From assembly GCA_025998755.1 (NCBI GenBank), contig AP024674.1, positions 2,744,162 through 2,808,161 of the forward strand: DNA of 64,000 bases, in the 5' to 3' direction. The DNA comes from Armatimonadota bacterium (GTDB taxonomy: Bacteria; Armatimonadota; UBA5829; DSUL01). Both the position numbers and the translations under genes were made by a program. Below, one piece after another: positions 43,030-64,000 of the stretch (positions are counted from its first letter, which is position 1; the number at the start of each line of letters is the position of its first letter). The notes under the pieces are model-generated. The model had not been told where the DNA came from and ran no database searches. It saw nothing but the letters and a program-made list of their open reading frames with translations.

Positions 43030-44133
43030 CTACTCGCCCGCCCGTTCAGGCCCCAGGTTTCGGAACAGGAACAACCCTTCCTTGCCGGGAGCCACGATGT
43101 CCAGCCGCCCGTCTCCATCAATGTCTCCGGCCCACATGAAGATGCCAGTGCCGGAATGCTCCCCCGCTTTGCCGTAGTCAATGACGCACTTGGTGAAGCT
43201 CTCGCCGTTCCACTTGAAGTAGAAAAGCCCCACGATATCCGTCTCGCCCGGCTCTCTGCCGCAGTGAGCGCGGTAGCGGTTGCCGGTCAGCAGCTCGCAG
43301 TATCCGTCTCCATCCACGTCCACCCACAGCATCTCGTGATACTGGGAGAACCAGGGATCCACCGGGTGGCGCGTCCAGATACGGCATCCATCCGGCCCCC
43401 GCTGCTGCGTCCAGTAGTCCAGACCGTAGCCGTGAGCCTGCCCTGCGACCAGCTCCGGGACACCGTCTCCGTTCACGTCCTCCACAAGGATGGGCACGCT
43501 GACAGTCCCAAGATCAAACTCCGGATGGAACTTCCATTCGCCCTCCAGCGGATCTGCCTTCGGAGCTTCCCACCATCCGCCAGGAGTCACGAGCGCCATG
43601 GTTCCGTCGCCCGAGATGTCCCCGAAGCCCAGTCCGTGCCCCTGAGGCTCCGACGAGAGGACGAACTCCCGGAAGCGGCCAGCCGGAAGCCCTGACGCAT
43701 CACGCTCCAGCTTGAACATGCGCAAGGGATTACCGGGAGTGTTCGGGACGATCTCCGGCTCTCCGTCTCCGTCCACGTCCCAGGCGCGGGTGGTCTCGAT
43801 GGAACCCACCACAGCGATCTCGTGCGTCTTCCACTCGCCGCCCGCAGGTCCCGGATTCTCCCGCCAGACGAGCGTCTGGCCCCACCATCCGCCTGTCACA
43901 AAGTCCGTGTAGCCATCCCCGTTGACGTCCATCGGGATGGTGGAGAAGTCGTCGTAATACTCCCCCTCGGCGCGGACGTCGCACAGCTTGTGCTTTGTCC
44001 ACTCCGGGCCGCGATACCAGTATCCCCCGCAGACAATGTCCGGGATGCCGTCGCCGTCCACATCGAAGACGCAGGCTGACTCAAACGCTTCGCTGTCTAC
44101 CTTGATTTTTTGCCATTCGACGCGCCGTTGCAG
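43030..44133 (-). CDS. FG-GAP/VCBS-repeat calcium-binding propeller protein
   Basis: A protein of about 367 aa built of seven repeats, each with a calcium loop: DVDGDGIPDIV, DVNGDGYTDFV, DVDGDGEPEIV, DISGDGTMALV, DVNGDGVPELV, DVDGDGYCELL and DIDGDGRLDIV. Such seven-bladed integrin-like propellers are usually extracellular and bind glycans or proteins, but no signal peptide is visible. The start is uncertain: no ATG or GTG is in frame near the domain, and the best Shine-Dalgarno (AGGAGG, 8 nt) precedes a CTG at 44133. A distant ATG at 44355 would add an implausible extension. Divergent from the glycosidase block. Confidence 0.8.
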   Translation of the reverse strand: MQRRVEWQKIKVDSEAFESACVFDVDGDGIPDIVCGGYWYRGPEWTKHKLCDVRAEGEYYDDFSTIPMDVNGDGYTDFVTGGWWGQTLVWRENPGPAGGEWKTHEIAVVGSIETTRAWDVDGDGEPEIVPNTPGNPLRMFKLERDASGLPAGRFREFVLSSEPQGHGLGFGDISGDGTMALVTPGGWWEAPKADPLEGEWKFHPEFDLGTVSVPILVEDVNGDGVPELVAGQAHGYGLDYWTQQRGPDGCRIWTRHPVDPWFSQYHEMLWVDVDGDGYCELLTGNRYRAHCGREPGETDIVGLFYFKWNGESFTKCVIDYGKAGEHSGTGIFMWAGDIDGDGRLDIVAPGKEGLFLFRNLGPERAGE

Positions 44134-44287
44134 TGCCTTTTCCTCCTGGCCGACAGAATGCTGCAAAGGCCGCTTCGCCTGTCCGATGCGGCCTTCCTGC
44201 GTTACGCGGTCAAAGATGCCGGAAGGGGCCGGGCATCCGGTCGGCAAACAGAAAGAAAACCTGAAAGAGTGCGTCAGAACGCTCGCC

Positions 44288-44316
44288 TTGCGGGGCGCCC
44301 ACACACATCCTATAAT
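44288..44316 (+). promoter_or_regulatory. Promoter of the propeller/sialidase block
   Basis: TTGCGG (44288-44293), 17-nt spacer, TATAAT (44311-44316). It lies 57 nt before the first start codon of the plus-strand glycan genes. Confidence 0.6.
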
Positions 44317-44372
44317 ACTACCACTCTGCGCGGGCGCGAGATCGCGCCCACGCATCGCGGGATGGAGCCGAA

Positions 44373-45872
44373 ATGCCGAACCTGACCCACGTCTGGGCCG
44401 AACCAGACCTGTATCTGATGGCCGATGAGGATCTCGTCGCCTCTTGCGAGCACGTCACCCGGAAGATCTGCCCCATCGAGAAGTCACCGGAGCCGGTGCT
44501 GTTCCCGGAGAAGCCCTGGGAAGGCGTGGGGCCGGACGGACGGGTCACCTCCCTGCAGGATCCATACTACGGAACAGTCCTTTACGATCCGGAGCATCGC
44601 TTGTTCCGCTGCTGGTACAACGCATACGACAGGTTCCACAACCGCGTCTCGGCCCCTCCCTACGGCAGTCAGAACTACTCCTGCTGCTATGCCGAGAGCA
44701 GCGACGGCGTCCACTGGGAAAAGCCGGTGGTGGGAGCCGTCCTGCACGACGGGTCGCTGGAGAATAACCTGGTGCGCTTCCGGGAGGATGCGGCGGAAGG
44801 AACCAGCAACCTTGGCGAGCAGGTCTGGAACGTGCTGCCCTACAGCGCTCCGGGCTCAGAGGACCGGTTTGTGGCTTCTCTTTTCACCCATTACGATGAT
44901 CCCCTGTTCCCTACCGGCATCACGTTCTGCTACAGCGCGGACGGATTGAGCTGGAGGATGTACTACCCGCCTCCTCTGATGCTGGAAGGGGACTGCCACG
45001 GATTCGCGTGGGATCCGGTCCAGCGCTGCTACATCCTGACCACCCGTTCCCACCAGCACATGACTCTGTGCCGCCGGTGGGGGCGCCCGTGGAAAAGGCA
45101 CATCGCCATGACCCGCAGCCGGGATCTGATCCACTGGACCGCCACGGAGACCATCCTGGAAGTGGACGAGAAAGATCCGGACGACGCCCAGCTCTACCTG
45201 ATGTATGTCATACCCTACGGCCACGCGTATCTTGGCCAGCTCCTGATGTTCTACGGTCACGAGATGACGCTGGACACGCAACTGGCTCTCAGCCGCGACC
45301 TTCGCACTTGGCAGCGCGTGGGCGAGCGCAAGCCTATTCTGGAGCGGGGCGAAGAAGGAAGCTGGGACTGCAAGCACGTGGCGCTGACACACAATCCCCC
45401 GCACCCGGAGGGCAACCGGATGAGGTTCTGGTATGGTGGCAAGAACGCTCCCCACTATCAGGCGGGGTACGGGGCGATGGGCACCGGTACCCTCCGCAGA
45501 GACGGCTTCGTCTGCCTGGAAGCCGGAGACGAAGAGGGCATTGTCAATACTATCCCCTTCCGGCCTCCGAGGCCGAACTCCGCCTGCTGGATCATTCTGA
45601 ATGTGGACGCAAGCGAGGGAGAGGTGCTGGTGGAGGTAACGGATGTGGACGGACGACCCCTGGACCGGGTGACCAAGGCGGACTGCGAACCCATTCGGGG
45701 TGACCACACCCGCGTGGTGGTGAACTTCCCCACCACGCCGGGCAACTTCTTCGACCGCGGCAACTTCCTGCGCTTCGCGCAGGACATCCGCCTGCGCTTC
45801 TACCTGCGCAATGCGAAGCTTTACGCCTTCAAACTGAACAACTACTCACCGGTCTGGCCGCAGAAGGACTGA
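44373..45872 (+). CDS. Five-bladed propeller glycosidase-like protein, paralogue 1
   Basis: A 499-aa protein resembling the GH32/GH43/GH117-like propeller families that hydrolyse or bind saccharides. Typical elements: CCYAESSDGVHWEKP and AMTRSRDLIHWTATE, which are blade edges. A C-terminal beta-sandwich spans about 400-495 (ACWIILNVDASEGEVLVEV; LRFAQDIRLRFYLRNAKLY). It is a paralogue of the proteins encoded at 50913 and 56276, most clearly in the sandwich. No signal peptide is seen, so it is either cytoplasmic or exported another way. GGAG precedes the ATG. First of six same-strand genes. I cannot assign catalytic acids confidently. Confidence 0.7.
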   Translation: MPNLTHVWAEPDLYLMADEDLVASCEHVTRKICPIEKSPEPVLFPEKPWEGVGPDGRVTSLQDPYYGTVLYDPEHRLFRCWYNAYDRFHNRVSAPPYGSQNYSCCYAESSDGVHWEKPVVGAVLHDGSLENNLVRFREDAAEGTSNLGEQVWNVLPYSAPGSEDRFVASLFTHYDDPLFPTGITFCYSADGLSWRMYYPPPLMLEGDCHGFAWDPVQRCYILTTRSHQHMTLCRRWGRPWKRHIAMTRSRDLIHWTATETILEVDEKDPDDAQLYLMYVIPYGHAYLGQLLMFYGHEMTLDTQLALSRDLRTWQRVGERKPILERGEEGSWDCKHVALTHNPPHPEGNRMRFWYGGKNAPHYQAGYGAMGTGTLRRDGFVCLEAGDEEGIVNTIPFRPPRPNSACWIILNVDASEGEVLVEVTDVDGRPLDRVTKADCEPIRGDHTRVVVNFPTTPGNFFDRGNFLRFAQDIRLRFYLRNAKLYAFKLNNYSPVWPQKD

Positions 45873-45893
45873 ACGCAGAGGAGGATCCCGGGC

Positions 45894-47108
45894 ATGCCCA
45901 CATGCTACAGCACATCCGCCCTCAACCCGATGGCGGTCATAGATGCCGCAGATGTGAGCCGGGAGTGGGGGCAGTATATCAACTCTGTATGTGTGACGCA
46001 GACGGGAGCCTGGCTCATCAGTGTGACCATAAACACCCCGAGTGGCGGAGTCGTCTACACACGCCGCAGCCTGGACCGGGGAAAGACCTGGGGGCCCCGC
46101 GTATACGCTGTCCCTCCAGGTTCGCTGGAGGCCGGGCGAACCATTGAAATGGGTCAACTGCTTCCGGTGGATGTGGACGGGGTGAGCCGGATCTATCAGT
46201 TCCACGTCCAGCACACGCGGGAGAACACGCGGTTCGGGCAGCTGCGCTACTCCGTCAGCCACGACGACGGTCAAAACTGGGAAGGACCCGGCGGACCGGG
46301 GACGCTCTATGAGCTTCCCGCCCCGGCTTACGAACTGTCGCCTGACAGCGACGGCTGGCACCTCATGGCTCCCGGGCTGACGCTGAAAAGCGGCGAGTGG
46401 CTCCTGCCGATGAACATCTCCACTGATCCTCTGCCCCTGGGAGAGATCCACTCGGAGCTGGTGTTCGGCATCACCCGGAATATCTTCACCGTGCGGGATC
46501 CTGCAGATCTCGAGATGGAGTTCTATCCGCCTCCTCCTCACGGCGTCTTCGTGCCGTACGAGCGCGAGCCGGGAAGGTCGCTTGGGCAGGAGCCGCAGGT
46601 GGCGCAGCTATCGGACGGCAGGCTCTTCTGTGTGTGCCGCACCGGAAACGGCTGCCTGTATTACACGGTCTCAGGTGATTCCGGCCGCACGTGGGAGCCC
46701 GCCTGCCCCCTGCTCTACAGAGAGGGCGGCGAACGGGTGCTCCACCCCAATGCACCCTGTCCGTTCCGCAGGCTCTCCAACAGGACGTATGCCCTGCTGT
46801 TCTGCAACAACGATGGCACGGCTTTCGGCGGGGCGGACCCGTTCGATCACACCAGGAACCGGCAGCCGGTCTATGTCTCCATCGGCCGGGAGACCGGTCG
46901 GACCGAGGGCCAGCCGCTGGAGTTCGGTGAGCCTCGGCTGCTGTGCAGCATCGAGGGGTTTCAGCCGGAGGCACACTGGCGTGATCTGACTTACGGATTT
47001 CTGCTGGAGGATGGGGGAGAATACTTCCACTTCTATAACGCCGTCTGGCGCTTCATCCAGGTTAACCGTGTGGATCCGGGTTTGCTGGAGATGGAGGACG
47101 GCCGTTGA
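45894..47108 (+). CDS. BNR-repeat sialidase-like protein
   Basis: A 404-aa six-bladed propeller of the sialidase/neuraminidase fold. Three Asp-box motifs are clear: SLDRGKTWGP, SHDDGQNWEG and SGDSGRTWEP. No signal peptide is evident. Whether the catalytic Arg triad and Tyr/Glu pair are present cannot be settled by eye, so this could be a hydrolase or lyase of another acidic sugar. AGGAGG precedes the ATG. The stop overlaps the next gene's TTG start (TTGA), so the two are translationally coupled. Confidence 0.75.
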   Translation: MPTCYSTSALNPMAVIDAADVSREWGQYINSVCVTQTGAWLISVTINTPSGGVVYTRRSLDRGKTWGPRVYAVPPGSLEAGRTIEMGQLLPVDVDGVSRIYQFHVQHTRENTRFGQLRYSVSHDDGQNWEGPGGPGTLYELPAPAYELSPDSDGWHLMAPGLTLKSGEWLLPMNISTDPLPLGEIHSELVFGITRNIFTVRDPADLEMEFYPPPPHGVFVPYEREPGRSLGQEPQVAQLSDGRLFCVCRTGNGCLYYTVSGDSGRTWEPACPLLYREGGERVLHPNAPCPFRRLSNRTYALLFCNNDGTAFGGADPFDHTRNRQPVYVSIGRETGRTEGQPLEFGEPRLLCSIEGFQPEAHWRDLTYGFLLEDGGEYFHFYNAVWRFIQVNRVDPGLLEMEDGR

Positions 47109-48979
47109 AGACGTTCTTCGCCGTAGTGATCCTGCTGACGCTCGCCGGTCAGCCGTGCCGGGCGGTGTCCGGCGGATGGTCTGTCATCGCCAAATGGTGG
47201 AGGCCAGACGCAAACCCCTTTGTGCGTGAGCAGGTCTGGGAGGGAACCTTCTGGAGCGAGGGCTGGAGCGAACCTGAGCAGTTCTACCCGAAGCACTTCC
47301 GGCCCGCGGGAAGCGTGCACCTGCTGCTGAAGAACACGTCCCCGCGGGATCAGACACTCGTTCTGACCCACATCAATGGCCAACCCCTTGAGGAATGCGC
47401 TACCACTCCCCGCAAAGCAGGGCCTGTGCTCTGGTACCGGCTGGAGTGCCCGCAGTTCCCGGTGGGCGAGATCGCGGACGACCTGACCGGCTTCGACCGG
47501 CAGAATGTCCCGCCCGGAGCGTGGGTGGAATGCACCATACGCTTGCGCCGCGCCCCTGAACAGAATGTGCTCCTCCAGTTTCGGTCAGGAGACGGGGAGA
47601 CGCTGGAGCAGGAAGTGCCTCTGAGTCCTCCCACAGCCAGGATCGAGGCGATCACCTTCTCCCGCAAGATGGACGCCGTCTATGTGTATGTCCGTTCTCT
47701 GGACGGCAAGGCCCTGTCGCCCGGCACGCTGCGCGTGGACGGACTGCCGCCGGCACGGCTGATCTGGCAGGAAGGGCCGGGGGGAAGCGGACTGTTACTG
47801 GCCGAAGCAAGGCTGGCGCAGCCGCTCCGGTACGGGACGTTCCATCTGTTCACGGTGACGCTGGGGGACGGCCGGAGGCTGGCGCAAGCGGTCAGGGTGT
47901 GGGACGGCTTTTTCGCGATCGGCCTCTACGGGACCGTCACGCCGGAGAGGGTGGCCGCGGCGAAGGCGAAAGGGTTCAACAGCTACTTCAATGGACCTCT
48001 GGACGTGCTGGACAACGCGCAGATGAGCTACGTGCCGCACGGAGGCATCGGACACCCTGTCCGCCACGCAACACACGGGCGAGGGCTGCTGTTTTACCAG
48101 AACCACGACGAGCCAGACGCCCACGACGTGAAGCTGGGCGAAGAGCTGCCTTGGATGGATCGGCTGGGAACGCACGCGATATTCAGCGTGCTGCCCCTGC
48201 AGCGCCGCCAGCGCCAGCAGGACCGCGCCACCCCGAATCTTTTGCTGGTGGACAACACCTACAAACCGCTCAACTGGTATGTCTACGGGCAGATTCCGGA
48301 CGTTTTCTGCACGGATCCGTATGTCCCGCTGGGAGGACGCCAGACGGACTACGTGTGGCGGGCGCTGGAGTGCGCGCGGGACGCCTCCGCGCCGCGGCCG
48401 CTTGTGGCAGTGCTTTGGGCATGCAGTCTGGACTCCGGCGCGCCCCGCAACTTCGGACGCCGTCCGCCCACCGCGCGTGAGGAGCGGGCGATGGCTTTCT
48501 ATGCGATCGGCTCAGGCGTAAAAGGGATTTCCTACTTCATTGACCTGACTCAAGAGACCGGGGAGGGGCAGTTTACCGGCATTTCGGACTACCCGGAACT
48601 CTGGGAGGAGGTGGGCCGCATCAACCGGGACATCGCCGCGCTTGCGCCGGCGCTGGCCGTGGCGTGCCCGGCGGGGCCTCCGCAGAAACAGGGACCGCTG
48701 TGGGTGCGCACGTTGATGAGCGGACGCGATACGGTGATCGTCAGCGTGGTCAACACAGAGCACTACATCGGCTACGAGACACGCACCCTTTACGCCTTTC
48801 ACCGCCCCGTGCGAGGCGAGCGCGTGAGAGTGCAGCTTCCGCCCGGGTTCGGCCACTGCCGGGTAGTCCGGGTGGAAGGGGGCGTGAAGTCTCCCGCGCA
48901 TCACACAAGAGATGGCGACACGCTGGAAATCCTTCTGGGCGAGCTGGACACGGCAGCCGCCTTTCTGGTGACCCGATGA
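47105..48979 (+). CDS. Secreted DEPD-motif protein, paralogue 1
   Basis: A 624-aa exported protein with a Sec signal peptide (FFAVVILLTLAGQPCRA). The N-terminal half is beta-rich; the C-terminal half looks like a TIM barrel with NHDEPDAHD and VDNTYKPLNWYVYGQIPD, followed by SGVKGISYF and a closing beta domain. The same ordered motifs occur in the 699-aa product at 57788-59887 (DEPDAHD, DNTYVPFNYLTYGSIPD, TGTKGISYW). Acidic residues in DEPD are candidate catalysts, as in DUF4091/GH123-type enzymes, but I cannot assign a family. The TTG at 47105 has GGAGG upstream. Confidence 0.7.
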   Translation: MKTFFAVVILLTLAGQPCRAVSGGWSVIAKWWRPDANPFVREQVWEGTFWSEGWSEPEQFYPKHFRPAGSVHLLLKNTSPRDQTLVLTHINGQPLEECATTPRKAGPVLWYRLECPQFPVGEIADDLTGFDRQNVPPGAWVECTIRLRRAPEQNVLLQFRSGDGETLEQEVPLSPPTARIEAITFSRKMDAVYVYVRSLDGKALSPGTLRVDGLPPARLIWQEGPGGSGLLLAEARLAQPLRYGTFHLFTVTLGDGRRLAQAVRVWDGFFAIGLYGTVTPERVAAAKAKGFNSYFNGPLDVLDNAQMSYVPHGGIGHPVRHATHGRGLLFYQNHDEPDAHDVKLGEELPWMDRLGTHAIFSVLPLQRRQRQQDRATPNLLLVDNTYKPLNWYVYGQIPDVFCTDPYVPLGGRQTDYVWRALECARDASAPRPLVAVLWACSLDSGAPRNFGRRPPTAREERAMAFYAIGSGVKGISYFIDLTQETGEGQFTGISDYPELWEEVGRINRDIAALAPALAVACPAGPPQKQGPLWVRTLMSGRDTVIVSVVNTEHYIGYETRTLYAFHRPVRGERVRVQLPPGFGHCRVVRVEGGVKSPAHHTRDGDTLEILLGELDTAAAFLVTR

Positions 48980-49067
48980 AGCCCGGTAGTGTCCCGGTGG
49001 GCCCTCCGAGGCAGGGGCGGATAATGATCTTTTCGGCACAGATTTGACAGACAAGGAGCTGAAAGCA

Positions 49068-49880
49068 ATGGCCTTTCCGACCGTTCAGGAGCTTTTTGAC
49101 CTCTCGGGCAAGACGGCCCTTGTAACAGGCGGAGCCCGGAACCTGGGCTTCGATATGGCCCTGGCGCTGGCGGAGGCGGGTGCGGATGTCGCAATCACGT
49201 CGCGCAATCTGGAAAGCGCCCGGCAGTCCGCGGGCAAGATCGCGGAAGCGACAGGGCGCAGGATCCTGGCGCTGGAGCTGGATGTAACCAGCGAGGATCA
49301 GGTCGCTTCCGTGGTGGACCAGGTGAGCCGGGATTTCGGCAGGCTGGACATCCTGGTGAACAATGCCGGGAATGTCAGCAGCACTCCAGAGAATGCTCCG
49401 CTGGAGAAGCGCCCGCTGGAAGAGTGGATGAACACCATCCAGGTGAACCTTACCGGCACATTTCTGGTCAGCAAGCACGTCGTGGCCAAGGTGATGATCC
49501 CGGCGCGCAGCGGAAATATTATCAACATCGCCTCCATCTCCGGGATGATCGGACGGGACCGCCGCGTCTACGCCGGGACGGACATGGGCGGCAGCACAGT
49601 GGATTATGCGGCTGCGAAGGGCGGCGTCATCAACCTGACGCGCGATATGGCGGCATCCCTGGCGCGTTACAACATCCGCGTGAACTGCATCTCGCCCGGT
49701 GGATTCTGGCGGCATCAACCGGAGCCGTTCGTGAAAGCCTACAGCGAGGCCACCCCCATGGGGCGGATGGGTCAGGACGGCAAGGAGATGAAAGGGCCGG
49801 TGGTGTTCCTTGCGTCGGAGGCATCCAGTTACTGCACCGGCATGAATCTGGTAGTGGACGGCGGGTTCACCTGCTGGTAG
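49068..49880 (+). CDS. Short-chain dehydrogenase/reductase
   Basis: A 270-aa classical SDR with an intact catalytic set: TGGARNLG cofactor loop, NNAG, Ser in IASISG and the YAAAK tetrad motif. This contrasts with the Arg-variant SDR at 10223. Similar to gluconate/2-keto-sugar or sorbose reductase-type SDRs. The C-terminus VVDGGFTCW is typical. The ATG at 49068 has AAGGAG 9 nt upstream. It lies between the secreted DEPD protein and a Gfo/Idh/MocA gene 13 nt downstream, so it likely oxidises a sugar released by the neighbouring hydrolases. Confidence 0.9.
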   Translation: MAFPTVQELFDLSGKTALVTGGARNLGFDMALALAEAGADVAITSRNLESARQSAGKIAEATGRRILALELDVTSEDQVASVVDQVSRDFGRLDILVNNAGNVSSTPENAPLEKRPLEEWMNTIQVNLTGTFLVSKHVVAKVMIPARSGNIINIASISGMIGRDRRVYAGTDMGGSTVDYAAAKGGVINLTRDMAASLARYNIRVNCISPGGFWRHQPEPFVKAYSEATPMGRMGQDGKEMKGPVVFLASEASSYCTGMNLVVDGGFTCW

Positions 49881-49893
49881 AAAGGAGCGCCCT

Positions 49894-50901
49894 GTGAGCG
49901 GAGACTGGAGGGATCAGAGCGCGCTGGTGGTGGGGTTCGGCTCCATCGGGCGCCGGCATACGCGGGTGCTGCGAGAGCTGGGGGTAAAGGACATCCGGCT
50001 GGTTGAGCCGCTGCAGGAGCGCCGGCGGGCCGCCGCCGATGAGATGGCAATCACGGAGGGTTACAGCTTGCTGGAAGAGGGGTTGGCCGGCCGACCGGAT
50101 ACGGTATTTCTGTGCTCCCCCACTGCGGACCACGTTCCTCAGGCAATGGCGTCTCTTGAGGCAGGCTGCCACGTGTTCACGGAGAAGCCCCTTTCGGTCT
50201 CCACGGAGGGCCTGGACGATCTGGAGGACCTGGCGCGCCGGACTGGCCGAAAGGTGATGGTGGGCCAATGCTACCGCTTCCACGCCGGTTGCCGGAGACT
50301 GAAGGACTGGCTGGACGAAGGACGTCTTGGCAGGCTTTTGTTCATACGCAGCATGTTCGGTGAATACATCCCGGACGCCATGCCGGACTACCGCAGCCGT
50401 TACGTCTCGAAATACAGCGGAGCCTACGAGCTGATGCACGCCGTGGACCTCGCGGTGTGGTATGCCGGGACCGATCCCGTGCAGGTGCTGGGGCTGGATC
50501 GGAAGGTGGGCGAGGCGGAGATGCAGTCGCCGGACCTGGTGGAGATGATCGTAGAGTTCGAGAGTCGCCGCGCTGCGAGCGTTCACATGGATTTCTTCCA
50601 GAGGGCCAGGCACATCGAAGTGGAGCTGTACGGGACGCAAGGAACCGCCAGGCTGGAGTTCGGTCGCTGGGACCGGTGCACGGCTTCGCTGTATGAGGCT
50701 TCCGGCGGTGAGTGGCAGACAGAAGAGATGGCCACCGACCGCGACGACATGTTTCGCGCGGAGGACTCGGAGTTCCTGAAAGCGTGCGCGGGAGAGGGAG
50801 AAGTCTCCGTGCCGGTGAGAGAGGGCCGCAAGGCGGTGGAAGTGATGCTGGCTGCCCGTGAATCTTCGAGGACGGGGCAGGCGGTGCATCTAAAACGCTA
50901 A
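49894..50901 (+). CDS. Gfo/Idh/MocA-family oxidoreductase
   Basis: A 335-aa NAD(P)-dependent sugar oxidoreductase: GFGSIGRRH dinucleotide loop, VFTEKPLS (the canonical EKP lysine) and YSGAYELMHAVDLAVWYAG for the substrate-side Asp/His segment. It is not orthologous in detail to the one at 19527-20660, which has DKP. The GTG at 49894 follows AAAGGAG. Third of the SDR/Gfo/propeller stretch. Sugar identity unknown. Confidence 0.9.
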   Translation: MSGDWRDQSALVVGFGSIGRRHTRVLRELGVKDIRLVEPLQERRRAAADEMAITEGYSLLEEGLAGRPDTVFLCSPTADHVPQAMASLEAGCHVFTEKPLSVSTEGLDDLEDLARRTGRKVMVGQCYRFHAGCRRLKDWLDEGRLGRLLFIRSMFGEYIPDAMPDYRSRYVSKYSGAYELMHAVDLAVWYAGTDPVQVLGLDRKVGEAEMQSPDLVEMIVEFESRRAASVHMDFFQRARHIEVELYGTQGTARLEFGRWDRCTASLYEASGGEWQTEEMATDRDDMFRAEDSEFLKACAGEGEVSVPVREGRKAVEVMLAARESSRTGQAVHLKR

Positions 50902-50912
50902 GGAGTAACGGT

Positions 50913-52379
50913 GTGAAGAAGCTGGGGAAGGCGACGGGATGGCTGCTTGCGATGGCCTGGGCGACGGGATGCGCGGTGCAGGGCGGCCCGGCAGGTGAGC
51001 CCCTGGACATCGGCTCCGGGCTGCAACTCTTTGTGGATGATGCGCTCGTGGAGTCACTGCGCGGCGTCTCGCTGCGACTCCATCAGCCGGTGCCGCGCGA
51101 GGTCTGCCTGGTGCTGGACGCGCCGTGGGAGGGGCCGGAAAGCGCCTACGCCACGGTGCTGAAAGACCACGAGGGGCGGTACCGCCTCTACTACCGGGGT
51201 GGCGGTGAGAAGACGCAGGAAGTCACCTGTGTGGCTTTCAGCGAAGACGGCATCCACTGGAAACGCCCGGAACTGGGTCTTTACGAATTCGAGGGCTCAC
51301 GGGCGAACAACATCGTGTTCCGCGCGCAGGGACGCAAGTCGTACGGCGAATGCCATAACCTCACACCTTTTCTGGACACCAACCCCGCAGCAAAGCCTGA
51401 AGAGCGCTACAAGGCCATCGCCCTGGCCAAACGGTTGCTGCCTTCCGGGGAAGATGTCCACGCGCTGGGAGCCCTGGTCTCGCCGGACGGGTTGCGATGG
51501 TCTCCCGGTCGCGCCCGGCTGATCATCACCGAGGGACGGTTCGACTCGCAAAACCTGGCGTTCTGGGACTCCGCCAAGAGGAAATACGCCTGTTACCTGC
51601 GCGATGGCCGAGAGTACCCCGGGGGCATCAGAGTGCGGAGCGTGCGCGTGGCTTATTCCGATGATTTTCAGAGCTGGACGGACCCGGAGTGGCTGGACTT
51701 CGGCGATTCCCCTCCGGAACACTTCTACACGAACGCGATCGGACCGTATCATCGCAACCCCTCCCTGTATCTGGGCTTTCCCATGCGCTTCGTCCCTGAG
51801 CGGACAACCATTGGAGATCCCCCGCGGGAGACGGACGGTCTCTCAGACGCGGTGCTGATCTCCAGCCGGGACGGCGTGCATTTCCGGCGCACCTTTATGG
51901 AGGCGTTCATACGGCCGGGACTCGATCCACTCAACTGGGGGAACGCGCACGGAAACCAGACCCCTGCGGCGGGACTGCTTCAGCTCACGCCGGAGGAGGT
52001 CTCCATCTACTGGCTGGAGCATTACGGCGGCACGCCCCGCATCCGGCGCGGCACATTGCGCACGGACGGATTCGCGTCGGTCAACGCACCCTACGCAGGC
52101 GGCGAGCTGGTCACCAGACCCCTGACATTCCGGGGAAGCCGGCTGGTCATCAACTACTCCACGTCCGCCGTCGGCAGTATCCGGGTGGAGATCCAGGACT
52201 TGCAGGGACGGCCGGTCAAAGGGTTCTCTCTTGAGGATTGCGCCGAGATCTACGGTGACGAGATCGAGCGCACTGTCTCCTGGAAAGGCGGGTCCGTCGC
52301 TTCGCTCAGTGGGCAGCCGGTCCGCCTGCGCTTTGTTATGAAGGACGCGGATCTGTTCTCCTTGCGCTTTTCCGACTGA
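50913..52379 (+). CDS. Five-bladed propeller glycosidase-like lipoprotein, paralogue 2
   Basis: A 488-aa protein starting with a lipoprotein signal (MKKLGKATGWLLAMAWATGC, lipobox ATGC), so it is anchored in the envelope. Propeller motifs match paralogue 3: FVDDALVESL, CVAFSEDGIHWKRPELG, ANNIVF, and a C-terminal sandwich with GGELVTRPLTF and VRLRFVMKDADLFSLRF. It probably binds or cleaves glycan at the cell surface. The GTG at 50913 follows AAGGAG. It is the last gene of the plus-strand block; its stop is 9 nt from the convergent enolase-superfamily gene, with no terminator between. Confidence 0.72.
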   Translation: MKKLGKATGWLLAMAWATGCAVQGGPAGEPLDIGSGLQLFVDDALVESLRGVSLRLHQPVPREVCLVLDAPWEGPESAYATVLKDHEGRYRLYYRGGGEKTQEVTCVAFSEDGIHWKRPELGLYEFEGSRANNIVFRAQGRKSYGECHNLTPFLDTNPAAKPEERYKAIALAKRLLPSGEDVHALGALVSPDGLRWSPGRARLIITEGRFDSQNLAFWDSAKRKYACYLRDGREYPGGIRVRSVRVAYSDDFQSWTDPEWLDFGDSPPEHFYTNAIGPYHRNPSLYLGFPMRFVPERTTIGDPPRETDGLSDAVLISSRDGVHFRRTFMEAFIRPGLDPLNWGNAHGNQTPAAGLLQLTPEEVSIYWLEHYGGTPRIRRGTLRTDGFASVNAPYAGGELVTRPLTFRGSRLVINYSTSAVGSIRVEIQDLQGRPVKGFSLEDCAEIYGDEIERTVSWKGGSVASLSGQPVRLRFVMKDADLFSLRFSD

Positions 52380-52388
52380 TCGATGCAG

Positions 52389-53669: not shown

Positions 53670-53686
53670 GCCGCCCCGTTTCCGTC

Positions 53687-56257: not shown

Positions 56258-56275
56258 CGCGTCAGATCTCCTTTC

Positions 56276-57772
56276 TTACTCACTGACACTTGTGCGGGGA
56301 GGTCCTCCGGGATATACAGCGAACAGCTTCGTTGCCCTGCTGCGAACCAGCAACCGCACCTTCCGGCCCCGCAGGGATGAGACATCAGTGGACTTTCTCC
56401 AGGAAAGGAGGTGGGCGGTGTCGTTGGCGTGGAGCAGGTCGCTGTCTTCCAGACCGTAGCCATCCAGCTCCCGGCCGTCCTCCCCCAGGAGAGCGGCTTT
56501 TGCGCATCCGCTGGCCGACGTGTCTATGTTGACGGCGATGGTCTCTCCCGTCACCTCGAATGGCCGCGTCACGAGCTCCCCGCCCGTGTAGTGGCTATCG
56601 GCCGAGACGAAGCCGTCCAGCCTCTGCCTCAGGCGGAAGGCGATGGGGTCGCCGAATTCGATGGGGTGCTTCGGCCTGGGGTTCTCCGGCGTGCGGTCCT
56701 GACCGTGCGTGCGGTCCCATCCGCAGTAGTACTGGTACAGATAATGCCCGTCTGGCACGGCCCCGATCAGCAGATGGATCTGGCGGGACGCCTTGCCCCC
56801 TTCCAGGTCCAGCCGCACGTAGGGTTCCCGGATGGAGCGGTCCCACCGGACGCCGTCTCGGCTGGCCGAGAACTGAACGTCTATGACCCCGTCGTTGATG
56901 AATCCTTCGGGCGGGGCGGGATAGTGATAGTAGATGGACGGGAACGACAGATAGATCCCAGGCGCGTAGTGGATCGTGGCGGATTGGTACAGGTCGCACT
57001 CCGGGGGATCCTGTTCGTCGCACTTCAGGACGGCGGGCAACTCTTTGTTGATGGGAGGCAGCGGTTCGATGATCAGCCCGCCAGGTCCCGGACGCCGCAT
57101 GCCCGGCGGCCAGCGGTCCGGACGGTTCTCGTCCACAGGAATGGGCTGGAAGATGTCGTCCGTCTCCGCATAGACCACCATTCGGCTACCTTTTGCCGGA
57201 GGAATGGGTCGGTCTGCATCGTTTCCCCGGCAGTAGATGCGGTACCGGCGGATCTGGGGATCCCAAAAGACGGACATGTGATTGTCCAGATGGTAGCGTA
57301 GGATCTCACCGGGAGCGCGCTTGAAGCGGATTCCGTCCGGCGATGTCATCACCCACATCCCCACGTACGGCCACTCGCCCACGAACTTGATGCGCTCATC
57401 GTCCGGCCCGTTCGGATCCACGAAGACGCACATCTCATCTGGGCGCAGATCCTGGATATCCACCAGGTTGTTGGCCGTCGAGCCCCAGAACTCCACCGCT
57501 CCGAGTTCCGGGCGCTCCCAGTTCACCCCGTCCTCACTGATGGCCAGCGCCATCGCCCGCGTCCACTCGCTCAGAACCACGGCGTAATACATCCGCCAGA
57601 GATCCTTCCATCGGAAGACCACCGATGGGCGCGTGAGGCGTTTCTCCCAAGGATGCTCCACCAGCAGGCAGGGGCCGCACTTCTCCGGCGGGTTCAGCCG
57701 GAGCGTCACCCCCTCCATCCGCTCGATGTCAGCTCCATCCACGAAAAGCAGACGCCGGTCTTCAAAAAGCAC
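56276..57772 (-). CDS. Five-bladed propeller glycosidase-like protein, paralogue 3
   Basis: A 498-aa protein, no signal peptide, paralogous to the products at 44373 and 50913. Shared: ALAISEDGVNWERPELG, STANNLVD, SASRDGVRW, GGELVTRPFEV and the closing KVRLLVRSRATKLFAV. Blades carry Asp/Glu residues in positions used by GH32/43 families, but I cannot name catalytic ones. The GTG at 57772 has GGAGG about 11 nt upstream. It sits between the GH84-like gene and the second DEPD protein in one operon, with spacings under 20 nt. Confidence 0.72.
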   Translation of the reverse strand: MLFEDRRLLFVDGADIERMEGVTLRLNPPEKCGPCLLVEHPWEKRLTRPSVVFRWKDLWRMYYAVVLSEWTRAMALAISEDGVNWERPELGAVEFWGSTANNLVDIQDLRPDEMCVFVDPNGPDDERIKFVGEWPYVGMWVMTSPDGIRFKRAPGEILRYHLDNHMSVFWDPQIRRYRIYCRGNDADRPIPPAKGSRMVVYAETDDIFQPIPVDENRPDRWPPGMRRPGPGGLIIEPLPPINKELPAVLKCDEQDPPECDLYQSATIHYAPGIYLSFPSIYYHYPAPPEGFINDGVIDVQFSASRDGVRWDRSIREPYVRLDLEGGKASRQIHLLIGAVPDGHYLYQYYCGWDRTHGQDRTPENPRPKHPIEFGDPIAFRLRQRLDGFVSADSHYTGGELVTRPFEVTGETIAVNIDTSASGCAKAALLGEDGRELDGYGLEDSDLLHANDTAHLLSWRKSTDVSSLRGRKVRLLVRSRATKLFAVYPGGPPRTSVSE

Positions 57773-57787
57773 AGTTTCTTCCCCCTC

Positions 57788-59887
57788 CTACTCCGCATCC
57801 TCCAGAATGCTCTTCAGCATCGGCTCCAGCGCGGCCCAACGCTCCCGCGCCTTGCCGTGGAGAGACGGGTCTGATGTCAGCACAACCATGTCTCCCAGGT
57901 CCAGCCGCCCGAGCTCCAGAATGAGCGAATCTCCCTCTCTCTTCACGTCCAGCGGCGTTAGCTTTCCGCCGTCCACGCGGAACGCGGATTTCACGTTGAG
58001 CCAGGAGGGTGGGGAGAAGGTCATGGTCGCCTTCTCGACGGACTGGAAGATGGTGCCACGGCGGTCTGACGAATGGTTCCGGTTGAACAGCGTCACAATG
58101 GCGATATCCGGCCCGGCGAAAAGCGTCCGGGCGATCACCCAGAACGGCCGCATGCTCGCGAACGGATCTCTCAAAGAACCGGGCTGCGCGGCCGGGCAAG
58201 CCACTCCCAGTTCAGGCAGAAGGGTGCGCGCCTCCGCGTTCAGGCGTGCCAGCTCCTGCATCAGTGCCTGCGCCTCCGGCTCCCGCGACCCGCACCCGTA
58301 GCATTCTCCGATAGGCGTGAACCACCAGTAGGAGATCCCCTTGGTCCCCGTCCCCAGGGCCATATGGAACTCCACTCTCTTCTCCTCGGGAGTGGGGAAG
58401 CGGAACGGCTCCTGATCCGGTAACCGGTAGGAGGTGGAGTTCAGGATGACGTGGGTAGGGCGCGGCTCGGCGGCCAGTCGGGCATACTCCGCCGTCCCCA
58501 TCACATACATCGGGGTATAAAACTGCGAGATGCGCTCCGGATTCTTCTCATACACGCCCCGGAGGTTCTCGATGTAATACGGGTCCAGCGCGAGGATGTC
58601 CGGGATGCTCCCGTACGTCAGGTAGTTGAACGGCACATATGTGTTGTCAATGTTCAGAAGGCACAGCGTGCGGTGATCCCTCAGCGTCCAGCTGCGCTGA
58701 CGCTCGACGACTCCCTGGCCCATGGAGCCCAACCGAAGGTCTGCAGGCTGCAGGTCGCTGGCAAAGTAGTCGTGCGCGTCTGGCTCATCCATCACGAAAC
58801 GGGTATAAGTCCAAGGGCTGCGGATGTCCTGCTTCGTGGGGTCGCGGCTCATCACCCGGAGTCCCATCTCCTGCAGCAGCGCAAAGCCCTCGTCCGAACC
58901 CACGAGATACCCGCTCTGCTCGCCAGCCATCAGCATGTGCGTATTGAAGAGGTAATCCCGGAAGGCGCGGCAGGTGTCCCGGGCGCGCTCGGCGACGGTG
59001 TTGCCGTGATTGCGGTAACCCCACATTCCCAGCGCGAAGTAATCGTCCCTCGCGCGCACCACATTCCGGGCGGTCTGGCCCGAGGAGTCCGTCACTTCAA
59101 AGAAGTGGAATGATCCGAACTCAAGCGGAGCCGGAAGATCCAGCCGAACGGGCAGAAATCCCTTACTGCTGCCGGCGAGACTTGCAGGAAGAGGTAGCGT
59201 CCGTCCGTCCAGCCGCACCTGCCGGATCCGGAACTCCTGACCATCCATCCGCCGCAGATACAGATACAGCCGCCGGATGTCCGAACTGAAGTTTATCCCT
59301 GCAAGCCGCAGCACCGGATCGTCCGCCGTGCGCACCACCAGCTCGCCCGTTGTCCAGTTCTCCCCGCTCAACCGGACACGCAATCGGCTCTGCTGAGGCT
59401 GTGCCTGAAGCCGGATGTTCACTTCCGACACAGCCCCCGGCGGCACGGGATCCGGGCGCACCTGATACCAGACGGGACGGCCCAGCGAATCCAGCCTGGC
59501 GCGCACGCCCGGCGGAGTGTCCTCCTCGGAGTTCAGCAGATACCCGGCCGAGGGCGTCCCGCCGTGCTCTTTGTGCTTCGGCACGATCTGCTTCGCCAGA
59601 TCCACCCCCTCCAGCCACACGCCGGTGACCTCCAGAGGCTGCGTGGACGTATTCCGCACGAAGAACCGGACCACCGCTCCGTGCGGCAGATCCGATCCGT
59701 CAGGGCGGGCAAAGCCCATCTCCACCCGCAGACGCCATCCGCCCATCGTGTATGTCAGCATCTCGGGGAGCATCCGGTCCCGGATGAAGACGCCCCCCGA
59801 AAGTTGAGCCGACTGGGAAAGGGCCGCAGGGAGCAGAAGCACGGACAGGCAGAAGGCCGCAGCCGGATAGCGAAACATTCTCTTCAT
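57788..59887 (-). CDS. Secreted DEPD-motif protein, paralogue 2
   Basis: A 699-aa exported protein with a signal peptide (FRYPAAAFCLSVLLLPAALS). The order of domains and motifs matches the 624-aa paralogue: an N-terminal beta region (VTGVWLEGVDLAKQIV), a strand-rich linker with LYLYLRRMDGQEFRIRQVRL, then the barrel with VMDEPDAHD and NIDNTYVPFNYLTYGSIPD, TKGISYW and a beta end. ATG with AAGGAG upstream. The two copies, in the two convergent operons, imply both strands serve one glycan programme. Function is unassigned. Confidence 0.7.
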   Translation of the reverse strand: MKRMFRYPAAAFCLSVLLLPAALSQSAQLSGGVFIRDRMLPEMLTYTMGGWRLRVEMGFARPDGSDLPHGAVVRFFVRNTSTQPLEVTGVWLEGVDLAKQIVPKHKEHGGTPSAGYLLNSEEDTPPGVRARLDSLGRPVWYQVRPDPVPPGAVSEVNIRLQAQPQQSRLRVRLSGENWTTGELVVRTADDPVLRLAGINFSSDIRRLYLYLRRMDGQEFRIRQVRLDGRTLPLPASLAGSSKGFLPVRLDLPAPLEFGSFHFFEVTDSSGQTARNVVRARDDYFALGMWGYRNHGNTVAERARDTCRAFRDYLFNTHMLMAGEQSGYLVGSDEGFALLQEMGLRVMSRDPTKQDIRSPWTYTRFVMDEPDAHDYFASDLQPADLRLGSMGQGVVERQRSWTLRDHRTLCLLNIDNTYVPFNYLTYGSIPDILALDPYYIENLRGVYEKNPERISQFYTPMYVMGTAEYARLAAEPRPTHVILNSTSYRLPDQEPFRFPTPEEKRVEFHMALGTGTKGISYWWFTPIGECYGCGSREPEAQALMQELARLNAEARTLLPELGVACPAAQPGSLRDPFASMRPFWVIARTLFAGPDIAIVTLFNRNHSSDRRGTIFQSVEKATMTFSPPSWLNVKSAFRVDGGKLTPLDVKREGDSLILELGRLDLGDMVVLTSDPSLHGKARERWAALEPMLKSILEDAE

Positions 59888-59985
59888 CAGGCACTCTCCT
59901 TACTCAAAGGCGGGCCGGAAAGATTGGTAGTATGATTGGACTTATTCATCCGACCTGAAGTCACCTTCGCCGGAGGCAGGCTTGC

Positions 59986-61992
59986 TCACGGCCACGGGAA
60001 CTCCGGAGCCCTGGCTCCGGTGATCCCGCTGATGATCGCCCAGATGACCGCCATCCCGAATTCCCCCAGTACCATCCCCAGGAACCACGGCCTTGCTTTC
60101 AAGAACAACCTCATGCCGCCGTAGCGCAGGATAAATACCTTGATGATCCACGCGACCAGGCAGGAAAACCAGAACACGGACATGGTCCACGAGACGCAAA
60201 GCGCGTATCCCAGGGGATGGAACGGCCACCAGAAGAACGCGGAGCGCATGTAGGAAAGGAACACGGTGAAGGCGGCGCCGACCGTGAACCAGAACAGCCC
60301 TTCGCGCGTGGCGGGCGCGGCATCCCGCATCTGGGCTTCATACTCCGACAGCGTCCAGTACGCGTGTCCCTGATAAACGTACTGGTAGAGATTGATGCCG
60401 CCCTTGTTATAGGGCAGCCATATGTGATACGCCCCGGCGATCAGCATGGCCGCCAGAATCCCCAGGCCAAAGACCGCCAGCATATTGCGCCGCCGCGTCT
60501 GGATGGAATCGCTGATCTTGAGACCGTCCAGGAACCCTGTCAGAAGCAGCCCGCGCTGCTCGCGCAGAAAAACCGTGTCGAAGAACGGCAGGAGCGCCAG
60601 ATTCTGAGCGCCGAGTGAGCTCATCGGGGCGAACATCCGGTACACATCAACAGGCCGGAAGGAGGTCTCCGTCATCAGCACGCCGGCCTCCGCCGTGCTT
60701 CTGGCCAGCACCAAAGCCACCACGAACAGGCAGACCCCGAACTCCAGCAGCGCCACCGCCGGCGAGAGTCCCGCCTTCCACGTCCAGAGCACTATCAGAG
60801 CCAGGCTCCCGAACAGCCCCCAGAACGCCACCGGATAAGGCAGCATCTCCCGGGAATCGTCCACGCGTTCCCTCCCGAAAGCCGATGCCACCACCCGCTT
60901 CAGATGCGGACGAGCCGCCCACAGCAGATAGGCCGCAAGAACGAAGTACGCCCCCACCGTCTGATACGCCACATACAAATGTGTGCCGTAGACCGGCATT
61001 CGGCGGATGTCCATTCCAAACGACCCTGCCACCACATCCTGGAACCGGGCGAACAGGGCGAAGAACCACAGGGAAAACAGGACCTCGGTCGGCAGGAGAA
61101 AGAAGAACCCGACGGCGGCGAACGAAAAGAAGATCCCCCACCAGTAGATGGCGTCCCAGGGCGGTGTGACCAGATAAGTATTCAGAAAGATGCTCAGGGG
61201 GATCTGCGGCACGCTGGGGGCCATATTGTGCAGCCCGTTCAAAGTGAACACCACCGCAGGGAGCGCTGCGCCTCCCCAGAGCAGGCGATTGCGCATCAGG
61301 TGCTGCGGACCATCCGGACGCACCATTTCCACTGGAAGCTGTACAAGAGGAAAGCTGAGGCGCTCGTTCTCCACCCACTGACGGCGCAGGATGCTGGCCA
61401 TGCACAGGAATGCGAAAAACACCAGCAACACCAGGGCGCTCCAGGCCGCAAGCGGCGTGGCCCACAGGCGCCAGGGCACCTCCTCGCCTTCCCACAGCCC
61501 CTCGAAGTAGCCCCGCGAGACCGGCTGGATACCCGGCTTTGTGGGATCGTAGGCCACCATCCACGGCTTGAGGTGCGGGTCATAGAGTTCGTGCCACTCA
61601 TTGGCTTTGTTGGCGTAGTAGTTGGTGGTGACGAACAGCGGCAGCACCTTCTCCATCAGCCCGCGCGAGCTGATCATCGCCGCGACCAGGATCATGCAGT
61701 AGATGACCAGGATCTCGGAGGGGTTTAGCCCGAAGACCCCGCCCAGCTTGCGCAGCGCCACCCGCAGCACCACGATGAAGAGGAGGATACCCACGATGGC
61801 CGGGGGCATCTGCAGGAAGCCGATCTGGATTCCCTGAATCACCAGCTCGGCGTAGCTCACCAGCAGGCAGGTGCCCGCCACCAGCGCCAGGCCCAGCAGG
61901 ATGGCCCTCGCCGAGATTCCTCTCCCCCCTTCTCCCTCCGTCACTACCCCTTCGCCGGACGTCCCGGTCCGCTGTTCCGTCTGTAAAGCCAC
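59986..61992 (-). CDS. DUF6785-type multi-pass membrane protein (OPT-like)
   Basis: A 668-aa integral membrane protein with about 14 hydrophobic helices (for example ILLGLALVAGTCLLVSYAEL, AIVGILLFIVVLRVALRKL, FWWPFHPLGYALCVSWTM). The helix pattern and GFLQMPPAIVGI/GVFGLNPSEIL segments resemble DUF6785/DUF6784 proteins, distant relatives of the OPT oligopeptide transporters found in Planctomycetes and Armatimonadota. A transport role, possibly for saccharides, is inferred from its place between two glycosidase-like genes. The GTG at 61992 lies 4 nt after the DUF4091 stop, with GGTGGAGG upstream. Confidence 0.8.
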   Translation of the reverse strand: MALQTEQRTGTSGEGVVTEGEGGRGISARAILLGLALVAGTCLLVSYAELVIQGIQIGFLQMPPAIVGILLFIVVLRVALRKLGGVFGLNPSEILVIYCMILVAAMISSRGLMEKVLPLFVTTNYYANKANEWHELYDPHLKPWMVAYDPTKPGIQPVSRGYFEGLWEGEEVPWRLWATPLAAWSALVLLVFFAFLCMASILRRQWVENERLSFPLVQLPVEMVRPDGPQHLMRNRLLWGGAALPAVVFTLNGLHNMAPSVPQIPLSIFLNTYLVTPPWDAIYWWGIFFSFAAVGFFFLLPTEVLFSLWFFALFARFQDVVAGSFGMDIRRMPVYGTHLYVAYQTVGAYFVLAAYLLWAARPHLKRVVASAFGRERVDDSREMLPYPVAFWGLFGSLALIVLWTWKAGLSPAVALLEFGVCLFVVALVLARSTAEAGVLMTETSFRPVDVYRMFAPMSSLGAQNLALLPFFDTVFLREQRGLLLTGFLDGLKISDSIQTRRRNMLAVFGLGILAAMLIAGAYHIWLPYNKGGINLYQYVYQGHAYWTLSEYEAQMRDAAPATREGLFWFTVGAAFTVFLSYMRSAFFWWPFHPLGYALCVSWTMSVFWFSCLVAWIIKVFILRYGGMRLFLKARPWFLGMVLGEFGMAVIWAIISGITGARAPEFPWP

Positions 61993-61996
61993 CCTG

Positions 61997-64000
61997 TCAG
62001 CGTGCCTCCACCTTTTCGGTATCTATGGCAGGGGGGCGGATCTGCGCTCCTGCCCGGACCAGTTTCTCCAGAGCCTCCCCGGCGCGCCGACGGACCTTAT
62101 CAAGCTTGGCGGGATCCAACTCGTAGTCTGTCAGCGACGGGCACGCCACCCGCACCGCGTCCAGAGCCTTTCTCCCCTGCGCGGCAAGCATCCTCCCGTC
62201 CGGGAGCCGGTCGGCATCCTCCACGGCGCTTTCCAGCATGCGGAAGAGATCGTAATCCTCGATACCCTCTCGCAGCATCTCCCAACGTATGGACTCGATG
62301 GGACCGGCGATCAGCGGCTTCCCGACGGGTTTGCGGGTGGCGGGATACAGAAGGAAGCCATCTCCGTTGCCGAACGGTTTGCGGCGGCCGTCGTTCGAAT
62401 AGGTCATGGGCTCCTCCCACGGGTTGCCGCTCCAGAACATGGTCTCCCAGTAGAGTACGCCGGTCACCCCCCAGGCATAGGACATCCAGTGGAAGATGCG
62501 GTGGCCGGCAGCGGGGTAGTCTATGAAGTAGTTGGGATACGGGTGTTTGGGTCCCGTGCACACATACCACCAGACAGCGTCCCCTGCTTCCTGCCTTTCG
62601 CGGCAGCGCTCCAGGCTGTACGCATCCAGCACTGGCGTCCAGATATCCACCGAGCCGATCAGTTCATCCTCCACCTGCTCGGTCAGCAGGATCTTCAGAT
62701 CGGGGTCTGCCTGTCTCCAGAGTCTGGCCTCCTCGGCCACCAGAGGATACTGAGGAGGGTCGGGCTCGTCGTAGATGTAGTTGTAGCCCTTCTCGAGCCA
62801 CCCCTTCTCCCTCAGGTGCGCACTGAGCTGCTTCAGGAACTGTACCTTCAGCTCCTCGTATCCCTCGTCGCCCGGTCCCTTGCCACCTACTCCTCTACGG
62901 AAAGACCCGGGAAGCATGAAGGCGTTGAACAGTGACAGGTATTTCTCCGCCCCTTCATCGAACTGCGAGAAGTCCAGGTGCACCTGGCCGTCTGTGACGG
63001 AGACGTGTACGTCGTGGGTCTGGAAGGCATTGAAGGGGGCGATCCGGTGCTCGTGGAAGGTGCGGTTCAGCAACTCCTCCGTCTGCCGGACGGGCTCCAC
63101 ATCTTCCATATCGATGCCGTGCCAGCGGCACAGCGCCTTTAGTCCGTGCCAGGTGCCGTATGCCGTCCGCAAATAGGGAAGGCTCGGCAGCTCGTAGTCC
63201 CACACGCGCAGGGACACCGGTATCCTTACCGGCACCTGTCCGGCGGGAGTGATGGTCACCTCGCCAGAATACTCGCCGGCAGGAGTGCCGGACGGCACCC
63301 GCACCGTGAACCAGAACGCGGTGGAGCGTCCGGATGGCACTGTGACCGGATCGTTGAGCGGGATGAGGGGGTCGGGATAGTCGCCCGGCAGGACGTCCAC
63401 GCTGCTCGGCAGGGTCACCGGAACCGTTGCTACCAGGCGCACGGAGACCGCGCCCGGCGGGATCCGTCCCGGACCGCGCAGCTCGGACACGCTGACGGAG
63501 ACGTCCTTCAGCTCACGATCGGGCGTCAGGACGATCTGAAACGGTTCGAACTCATTCTTTGCCGCAGCGAGTCTTACAGGCCCGCTGCGGCGGGAGGTGG
63601 GACGGCTGTCCGGAAAGACCTTTTCCGAGGCGCTCGCCTCCCACACCTGCCCCCACGGCGCCTGAGTGAGCATCCTGCCCGCCACGGCAGGGCGTTTGGG
63701 GGGGACGGGGAGGGTGAAGCTGCCGAGAAACGCAGCTCCGCCCCCCGGGATCTCTCCGAATACATCCACGCCGACCCTGCTCAGCCCGTGCGGAATCGGC
63801 AGGCGGGCACTGAGTGAGACAGTGGATGCCGGGGAGAGGGTGACCTCCCGCAGACGGACTGACCGCTCGAAGACGGAAGGATGCGCGCTCAGCCGTGGCC
63901 GCAGCACAACCGGTGATGTGCTGTCTGCATCCAGCTTGAGACGAATATCCGCGACTCCCGCCTGCGGCCTGGCCGCGGCGCTCATCCATGCAACAGCAGA
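61997..64000 (-). CDS. DUF4091/GH123-like protein, N-terminus beyond the window
   Basis: The frame stays open to the last base. An internal ATG at 63985 exists, but the sequence before it is still coding and the N-terminal beta domain appears cut, so the true start is probably outside. At least 667 aa are present: beta-sandwich N-terminal region, then a TIM barrel with YNYIYDEPDPPQYPL (the Asp-Glu pair used by GH123 exo-acting N-acetylhexosaminidases) and WWYVCTGPKHPYPN. A C-terminal helical end (DYDLFRMLESAVEDAD) closes it, as in DUF4091. GH123 enzymes act on N-acetylgalactosaminides; the substrate here is unknown. Head of the minus-strand operon running to 52389. Confidence 0.8.
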   Translation of the reverse strand, partial: SAVAWMSAAARPQAGVADIRLKLDADSTSPVVLRPRLSAHPSVFERSVRLREVTLSPASTVSLSARLPIPHGLSRVGVDVFGEIPGGGAAFLGSFTLPVPPKRPAVAGRMLTQAPWGQVWEASASEKVFPDSRPTSRRSGPVRLAAAKNEFEPFQIVLTPDRELKDVSVSVSELRGPGRIPPGAVSVRLVATVPVTLPSSVDVLPGDYPDPLIPLNDPVTVPSGRSTAFWFTVRVPSGTPAGEYSGEVTITPAGQVPVRIPVSLRVWDYELPSLPYLRTAYGTWHGLKALCRWHGIDMEDVEPVRQTEELLNRTFHEHRIAPFNAFQTHDVHVSVTDGQVHLDFSQFDEGAEKYLSLFNAFMLPGSFRRGVGGKGPGDEGYEELKVQFLKQLSAHLREKGWLEKGYNYIYDEPDPPQYPLVAEEARLWRQADPDLKILLTEQVEDELIGSVDIWTPVLDAYSLERCRERQEAGDAVWWYVCTGPKHPYPNYFIDYPAAGHRIFHWMSYAWGVTGVLYWETMFWSGNPWEEPMTYSNDGRRKPFGNGDGFLLYPATRKPVGKPLIAGPIESIRWEMLREGIEDYDLFRMLESAVEDADRLPDGRMLAAQGRKALDAVRVACPSLTDYELDPAKLDKVRRRAGEALEKLVRAGAQIRPPAIDTEKVEAR

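Follow-up and report, generated by a model that had tools for sequence, protein, structure and literature searches.

Polysaccharide utilisation loci of the SusC/SusD type group the genes of exported and of cytosolic glycan enzymes together with a regulator of their own. The SSS/SSF symporters (PF00474) include SiaT (PDB 5nv9), a sialic acid carrier, and those members of the OPT superfamily (PF03169) whose function has been assigned transport peptides and metal chelates rather than sugars; none is known to be linked to the use of glycans. DUF4091 enzymes with a DE catalytic motif are β-N-acetylgalactosaminidases or hexosaminidases (PMC11087588). The locus described here, from an Armatimonadota genome, resembles the SusC/SusD-type loci in clustering both kinds of glycan enzyme with a regulator, but it is without SusC/SusD, and its uptake is proposed to be symporter-based. 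We consider it probable that it is a conserved glycan-catabolic locus, made of three neighbouring transcription units (two operons and an SSF/GntR unit), in a patchily distributed Armatimonadota lineage. It offers a concrete conserved locus from a poorly studied phylum, with DEPD, propeller, and DUF6785 families that have no assigned activity.

The window, meaning the whole stretch of 64,000 bases that was analysed, covers bases 2744162-2808161 of a single-contig genome of 3,289,812 bases (3.29 Mb). It contains two convergent operons, as the initial annotation had proposed, with 9 bases between their converging ends and gaps of at most 98 bp between the genes within both. Operon A, on the plus strand, encodes the propeller PropA (44373..45872), a BNR/Asp-box repeat protein with a sialidase-like fold (45894..47108; BNR_2, 4.6e-8), DEPD1 (47105..48979), an SDR oxidoreductase that serves as a marker of the cluster (49044..49880; Pfam, 5.5e-54), a Gfo/Idh/MocA oxidoreductase (Gfo1, 49894..50901) that adjoins or lies near the SDR gene in cluster carriers, and PropB (50913..52379). 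The minus-strand operon, given from its converging end, holds an enolase-superfamily protein (52389..53669), a GH84-like protein with GH20b and CBM9 domains (53687..56257), PropC (56276..57772), DEPD2 (57788..59887), a DUF6785+DUF6784 membrane protein (59986..61992; Pfam, 5.6e-145), and a GH123/DUF4091 catalytic protein with CBM9 (61997..64000; GH123_cat, 2.1e-32), whose gene runs over the window edge and likely starts at 64690 in window-equivalent numbering (L010 position plus 59838), which is used for all coordinates past the edge. Beyond base 64000 the minus-strand series goes on with an SSF symporter (65726-67363; SSF, 4.2e-37), a second Gfo/Idh/MocA enzyme (Gfo2, 67385-68377), an HpaI-type aldolase (68438-69277; HpcH_HpaI, 6.4e-29), and a GntR/FCD regulator (69365-70093; FCD, 5.7e-22). 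A plus-strand prepilin-like gene (about 64941-65603; L010:5103-5765) lies between GH123 and SSF; it carries an N-methylation motif and recurs at this position, on this strand, in L145 and, it seems, in L013. Divergent from operon A, on the minus strand, is an FG-GAP repeat propeller protein (43030..44355 for the reading frame as called, with the true start probably near 44166; Pfam FG-GAP_3, 1.6e-24), with relatives at 63-72% over about 370-430 aa in clusters L148, L158, and L159, and at 89% in the same-genus L206.

The initial annotation had described the locus as lacking any importer of a known type, with DUF6785 as the only visible candidate. Both statements have to be given up: the SSF gene ends about 1.7 kb past the window edge, on the same strand and preceded by Gfo2, the aldolase, and the regulator, so that the missing importer was an artefact of where the window ends. 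The space between SSF and GH123 is 615 bp and holds the opposite-strand gene. The SSF protein scores 128.4 bits against PF00474 (cut-off 22.8) over positions 1-406 of the 406 in the profile, its best PDB match is SiaT (5nv9, E 5e-41), and its Ser-Ser and TDVxQ segments, which belong to the sodium-site region of SSF symporters, align to that structure. However, its identity to SiaT is too low for it to be called a sialic acid carrier, and it sits with GH123, DEPD, and propeller genes instead of Nan genes. It is most likely the ordinary sodium-coupled importer of the locus. The annotation's observation that SusC/SusD, TonB, PTS, and ABC genes are absent stands for the locus itself; the one TonB-dependent receptor match in the whole genome is at 291 kb, far away.

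Rather than being scattered, the gene neighbourhoods of relatives keep the convergent order across families. In G077, from another family of the same class, the first arm reads GntR-HpaI-SSF-(prepilin-like)-GH123-DUF6785-PropC-(GH127-like)-GH29 and the converging arm DEPD2-Gfo1-SDR-DEPD1-BNR-PropA, and partial versions of this order occur in L013, L149, L148, and L159. The Armatimonadota contig L013 has GntR-HpaI-SSF-GH123-DUF6785-PropC, so that SSF precedes GH123-DUF6785 there, as it does in L145; in G103 and G127 the order is Gfo2-SSF-DUF6785 and the called reading frames of the last two genes overlap, and an overlap of ~23 bp as called is seen in L148 and L159. BNR orthologues at 69-73% are present in L146, L149, and L154. 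Among 201 genomes of the phylum, SDR was found at 1e-90 in 10, and DEPD2 (1e-60) and SDR (1e-90) share the same eight class members, with two other genomes each. Strict SSF orthologues (1e-150) occur in six of the 201, all of them cluster carriers from among those eight, and SSF was not found in carriers G001 and G003, whose assemblies are fragmented and 69% and 80% complete. A canonical transporter does therefore lie shortly past the window edge, and its linkage is seen in L013, L145, L148, and L159, with gene order as the indication of its co-regulation. The convergent order across families, the co-occurrence of markers, and a rare upstream motif described below together support the suggestion that these genes act jointly on one glycan.

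The annotation's reading of the proteins was largely confirmed. The three propellers are paralogous at 23-29% identity (A/B 26%, 1e-22; B/C 29%, 4e-43; A/C 23%, 4e-9), as are DEPD1 and DEPD2 (31%, 2e-51), which share an invariant DEPD motif (alignment A3), and Pfam agrees on the BNR, SDR, Gfo/Idh/MocA, and enolase-superfamily genes and on the multi-pass DUF6785+DUF6784 protein. The propeller profile (A4) reaches GH130 mannoside phosphorylases at 1e-10, which likens the three to the five-bladed propellers of the GH130/GH43 kind; they differ in having no Pfam family assigned and in falling far under the NCBIfam cut-off for GH130 (NF052550, 28 bits against 450). PropA is a predicted cytosolic glycosidase- or phosphorylase-like propeller. 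The DEPD proteins have no Pfam family; their profile found nothing convincing in the PDB and no counterpart in viral contigs, and an AF2 model of DEPD2 built from two sequences only reached a pLDDT of 33.5. The GH123-like call is firm, with a GH123_cat domain at 113.2 bits (cut-off 23.1) and the consecutive DE catalytic motif, present as YDEPDP, which it has in common with the characterised DUF4091 enzymes (PMC11087588); it differs from them in its added CBM9 domain and is, from its sequence, a candidate enzyme of this type. The GH84-like call is weak: a GH20b domain (26.3 bits against a cut-off of 26.1), a NagJ N-domain (E 0.015), and an Asp-Asp pair, IDDP, speak for it, but no GH84 catalytic domain was matched by Pfam. 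The best PDB matches of the SDR are of the SDR/gluconate 5-dehydrogenase type. The enolase-superfamily protein has an enolase C-terminal Pfam domain, is MLE-like, and keeps K215xK217/K332 and the metal ligands D250, E283, and D309; since it is widespread in the phylum (78 of 201 genomes) yet missing from most cluster carriers, it appears accessory and not core. We set aside a standard non-phosphorylative sugar-acid pathway because this protein is MLE-like and outside the core. By a simple N-terminal hydrophobicity heuristic, which is not a trained predictor, DEPD1, DEPD2, and the GH84-like protein would be exported, PropB has a lipobox, and GH123 from its corrected start also opens with a lipoprotein-like signal; PropA, PropC, BNR, SDR, Gfo1, Gfo2, the HpaI-type aldolase, and the enolase-superfamily protein have no signal.

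The AF2 model of the DUF6785 protein, built from 57 sequences, has a mean pLDDT of 91.5 and superposes along its full length on barley YS1, of the OPT superfamily; the YS1 entries 7wsr and 7wst were its only PDB matches at E<=0.001 in Foldseek (E 6.4e-9, TM 0.65/0.72, and E 3.9e-8, TM 0.63/0.69), and the next PDB match had a TM of 0.11. An Armatimonadota homologue (L236) scores above the cut-off for both families (DUF6785, 532 bits; Pfam OPT, 35.6 bits against 25.8), and others have intermediate scores for OPT only. The window protein itself falls under the PF03169 cut-off, Pfam finding only DUF6785 and DUF6784 in it, and none of the 57 relatives in alignment A2 matches PF03169 at 0.01. We therefore claim a predicted fold shared with OPT proteins and a probable relation to their superfamily, not membership of PF03169; the protein appears remotely related to plant transporters of iron chelates and peptides. 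A hhalign comparison against just one true OPT protein gave a probability of 2% and was uninformative, and a search of BFVD with the DUF6785 fold gave no match. A Pfam OPT match on a DUF6785 paralogue of the same genome, obtained in a six-frame search, did not recur when the complete protein was run through hmmscan and is given no weight. Two Armatimonadota membrane proteins with a weak Pfam OPT match and no DUF6785 (L240:1450-3441 and L249:1456-3405) are possible intermediates. The predicted fold makes DUF6785 a testable transporter family and its role as a transporter better supported, yet it is not the sole importer candidate here. Members of the family occur in Armatimonadota, Poribacteria, Latescibacterota, and Gemmatimonadota; the paralogues in the same genome and the distant homologues have mixed housekeeping and metabolic neighbours with no visible enrichment of glycan genes, as judged without a formal background control, so DUF6785 is not in general a protein of glycan loci and glycan import would not be its general role. 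Two further copies in the genome, one in three pieces (G000:C1:1673473-1675004) and one truncated (279616-280254), are likely decayed paralogues. No literature was found on DUF6785, PF20581, or OPT in polysaccharide loci.

The part played by each carrier can be read in other ways. That DUF6785 is the main oligosaccharide importer, leaving a minor product or co-substrate to SSF, seems unlikely: its gene stands in a tight operon with GH123, DEPD2, and PropC, kept wholly or partly in L013, L015, L145, and L156, and the protein has a predicted transporter fold, but the SSF symporter is tied strictly to the cluster, other DUF6785 genes adjoin unrelated metabolism, and sugars are not the cargo of OPT relatives of assigned function. 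A doubtful but more credible idea is that it takes up a peptide or a metal chelate, such as leftover glycopeptide or metal for the enzymes, and no sugar. Its sole fold match is the Fe(III)-phytosiderophore carrier YS1, the Pfam OPT match in homologues points the same way, and Poribacterial homologues of about 50% identity (L016-L030) have a D-threonine-aldolase-like neighbour, named by eye, in 13 of 80 loci; yet the locus contains no peptidase or metal genes, and within the clade DUF6785 is consistently co-located with glycosidases. A bolder reading, which we consider rather unlikely, is that DUF6785/DUF6784 is an unrecognised prokaryotic OPT branch, of which this clade imports glycan fragments or glycopeptides; if true, no OPT carrier linked to saccharides was known to us before.

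Another alternative is that the SSF/GntR unit is a system separate from both operons of the window and adjoins them by chance. The opposite-strand prepilin-like gene comes between SSF and GH123, and in G008 and G137 SSF and the rest of the cluster lie on separate contigs. We regard this as the least likely of the alternatives, because the units adjoin in L013, L145, L148, and L159, in more than one family, the SSF and DUF6785 genes overlap in two loci, and the markers are present and absent together.

Our preferred reading, with exported hexosaminidase-type enzymes, import by the SSF symporter, and cytosolic finishing, is one that we think fairly likely as a whole, and in it the substrate, the direction of transport, the cargo of each carrier, and the catabolic steps are inferred. 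The exported GH123/DUF4091 and GH84-like CBM9 proteins, DEPD1, DEPD2, and the lipoprotein PropB would act on an amino-sugar-containing glycan, cleaving it in the periplasm or on the cell surface, and the products would enter the cell through the sodium symporter. A different product is probably imported by DUF6785, a divergent carrier resembling the OPT superfamily and thus the second importer. PropA, PropC, and BNR may then trim the imported saccharides in the cytosol, and the SDR and Gfo dehydrogenases with the HpaI-type aldolase could turn a sugar or sugar acid into pyruvate and an aldehyde, joined in some genomes by the MLE-like enolase-superfamily enzyme. The clusters of relatives hold GH29 fucosidases and several sulfatases, which would join the exported set, so the polymer is probably sulfated and/or fucosylated as well as amino-sugar-containing. 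The locus of the window genome is itself without sulfatase or GH29, both of which sit elsewhere: at G000:C1:2593844-2602077 (L166) there are a partial DEPD2 paralogue, a GH29 fucosidase, and three sulfatases, and at G000:C1:3094560-3097957 (L164) a PropC paralogue has a GH127-like gene as its neighbour and a sulfatase in the vicinity. The GH29 gene of L166 is split over two frames, possibly as a pseudogene or through a sequencing error, and the PropC paralogue of L164 has one TGA inside its match.

The local GntR/FCD repressor would control the locus, perhaps at the 9-mer ATACTACCA, which could be an operator for GntR or a promoter element. The number of copies expected in the window is 0.02. 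Three of its seven copies in the genome are at the locus, and all three are oriented along transcription: upstream of operon A and PropA (44315..44323, plus strand), where TATAAT overlaps it, in the DUF6785-DEPD2 gap upstream of DEPD2 (59925..59933, minus strand), and before GH123 (window-equivalent 64780-64788, minus strand). The backward-read control has eight copies genome-wide. The chance of at least three of seven copies falling within 26 kb is about 2e-5, a value uncorrected for post hoc choice that overstates the evidence because the motif was picked after comparing promoters. FadR-type TNGTNNNACNA operator sites gave no useful pattern. The genome G001, of the same genus, keeps two of the ATACTACCA sites; the operon A site is conserved in L206 and the DEPD2 site in L156, both likewise of the same genus, and in G003 a copy adjoins GH123 on the opposite strand. 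Beyond the locus, L010:14192-15469 encodes a pectate-lyase-like (RHGA/epimerase) protein, and a similar protein is found inside the G127 and G103 clusters. Elsewhere in the genome, around G000:C1 position 1154660 (L258), cas4-like and cas7-type genes recognised by eye suggest a CRISPR-Cas locus.
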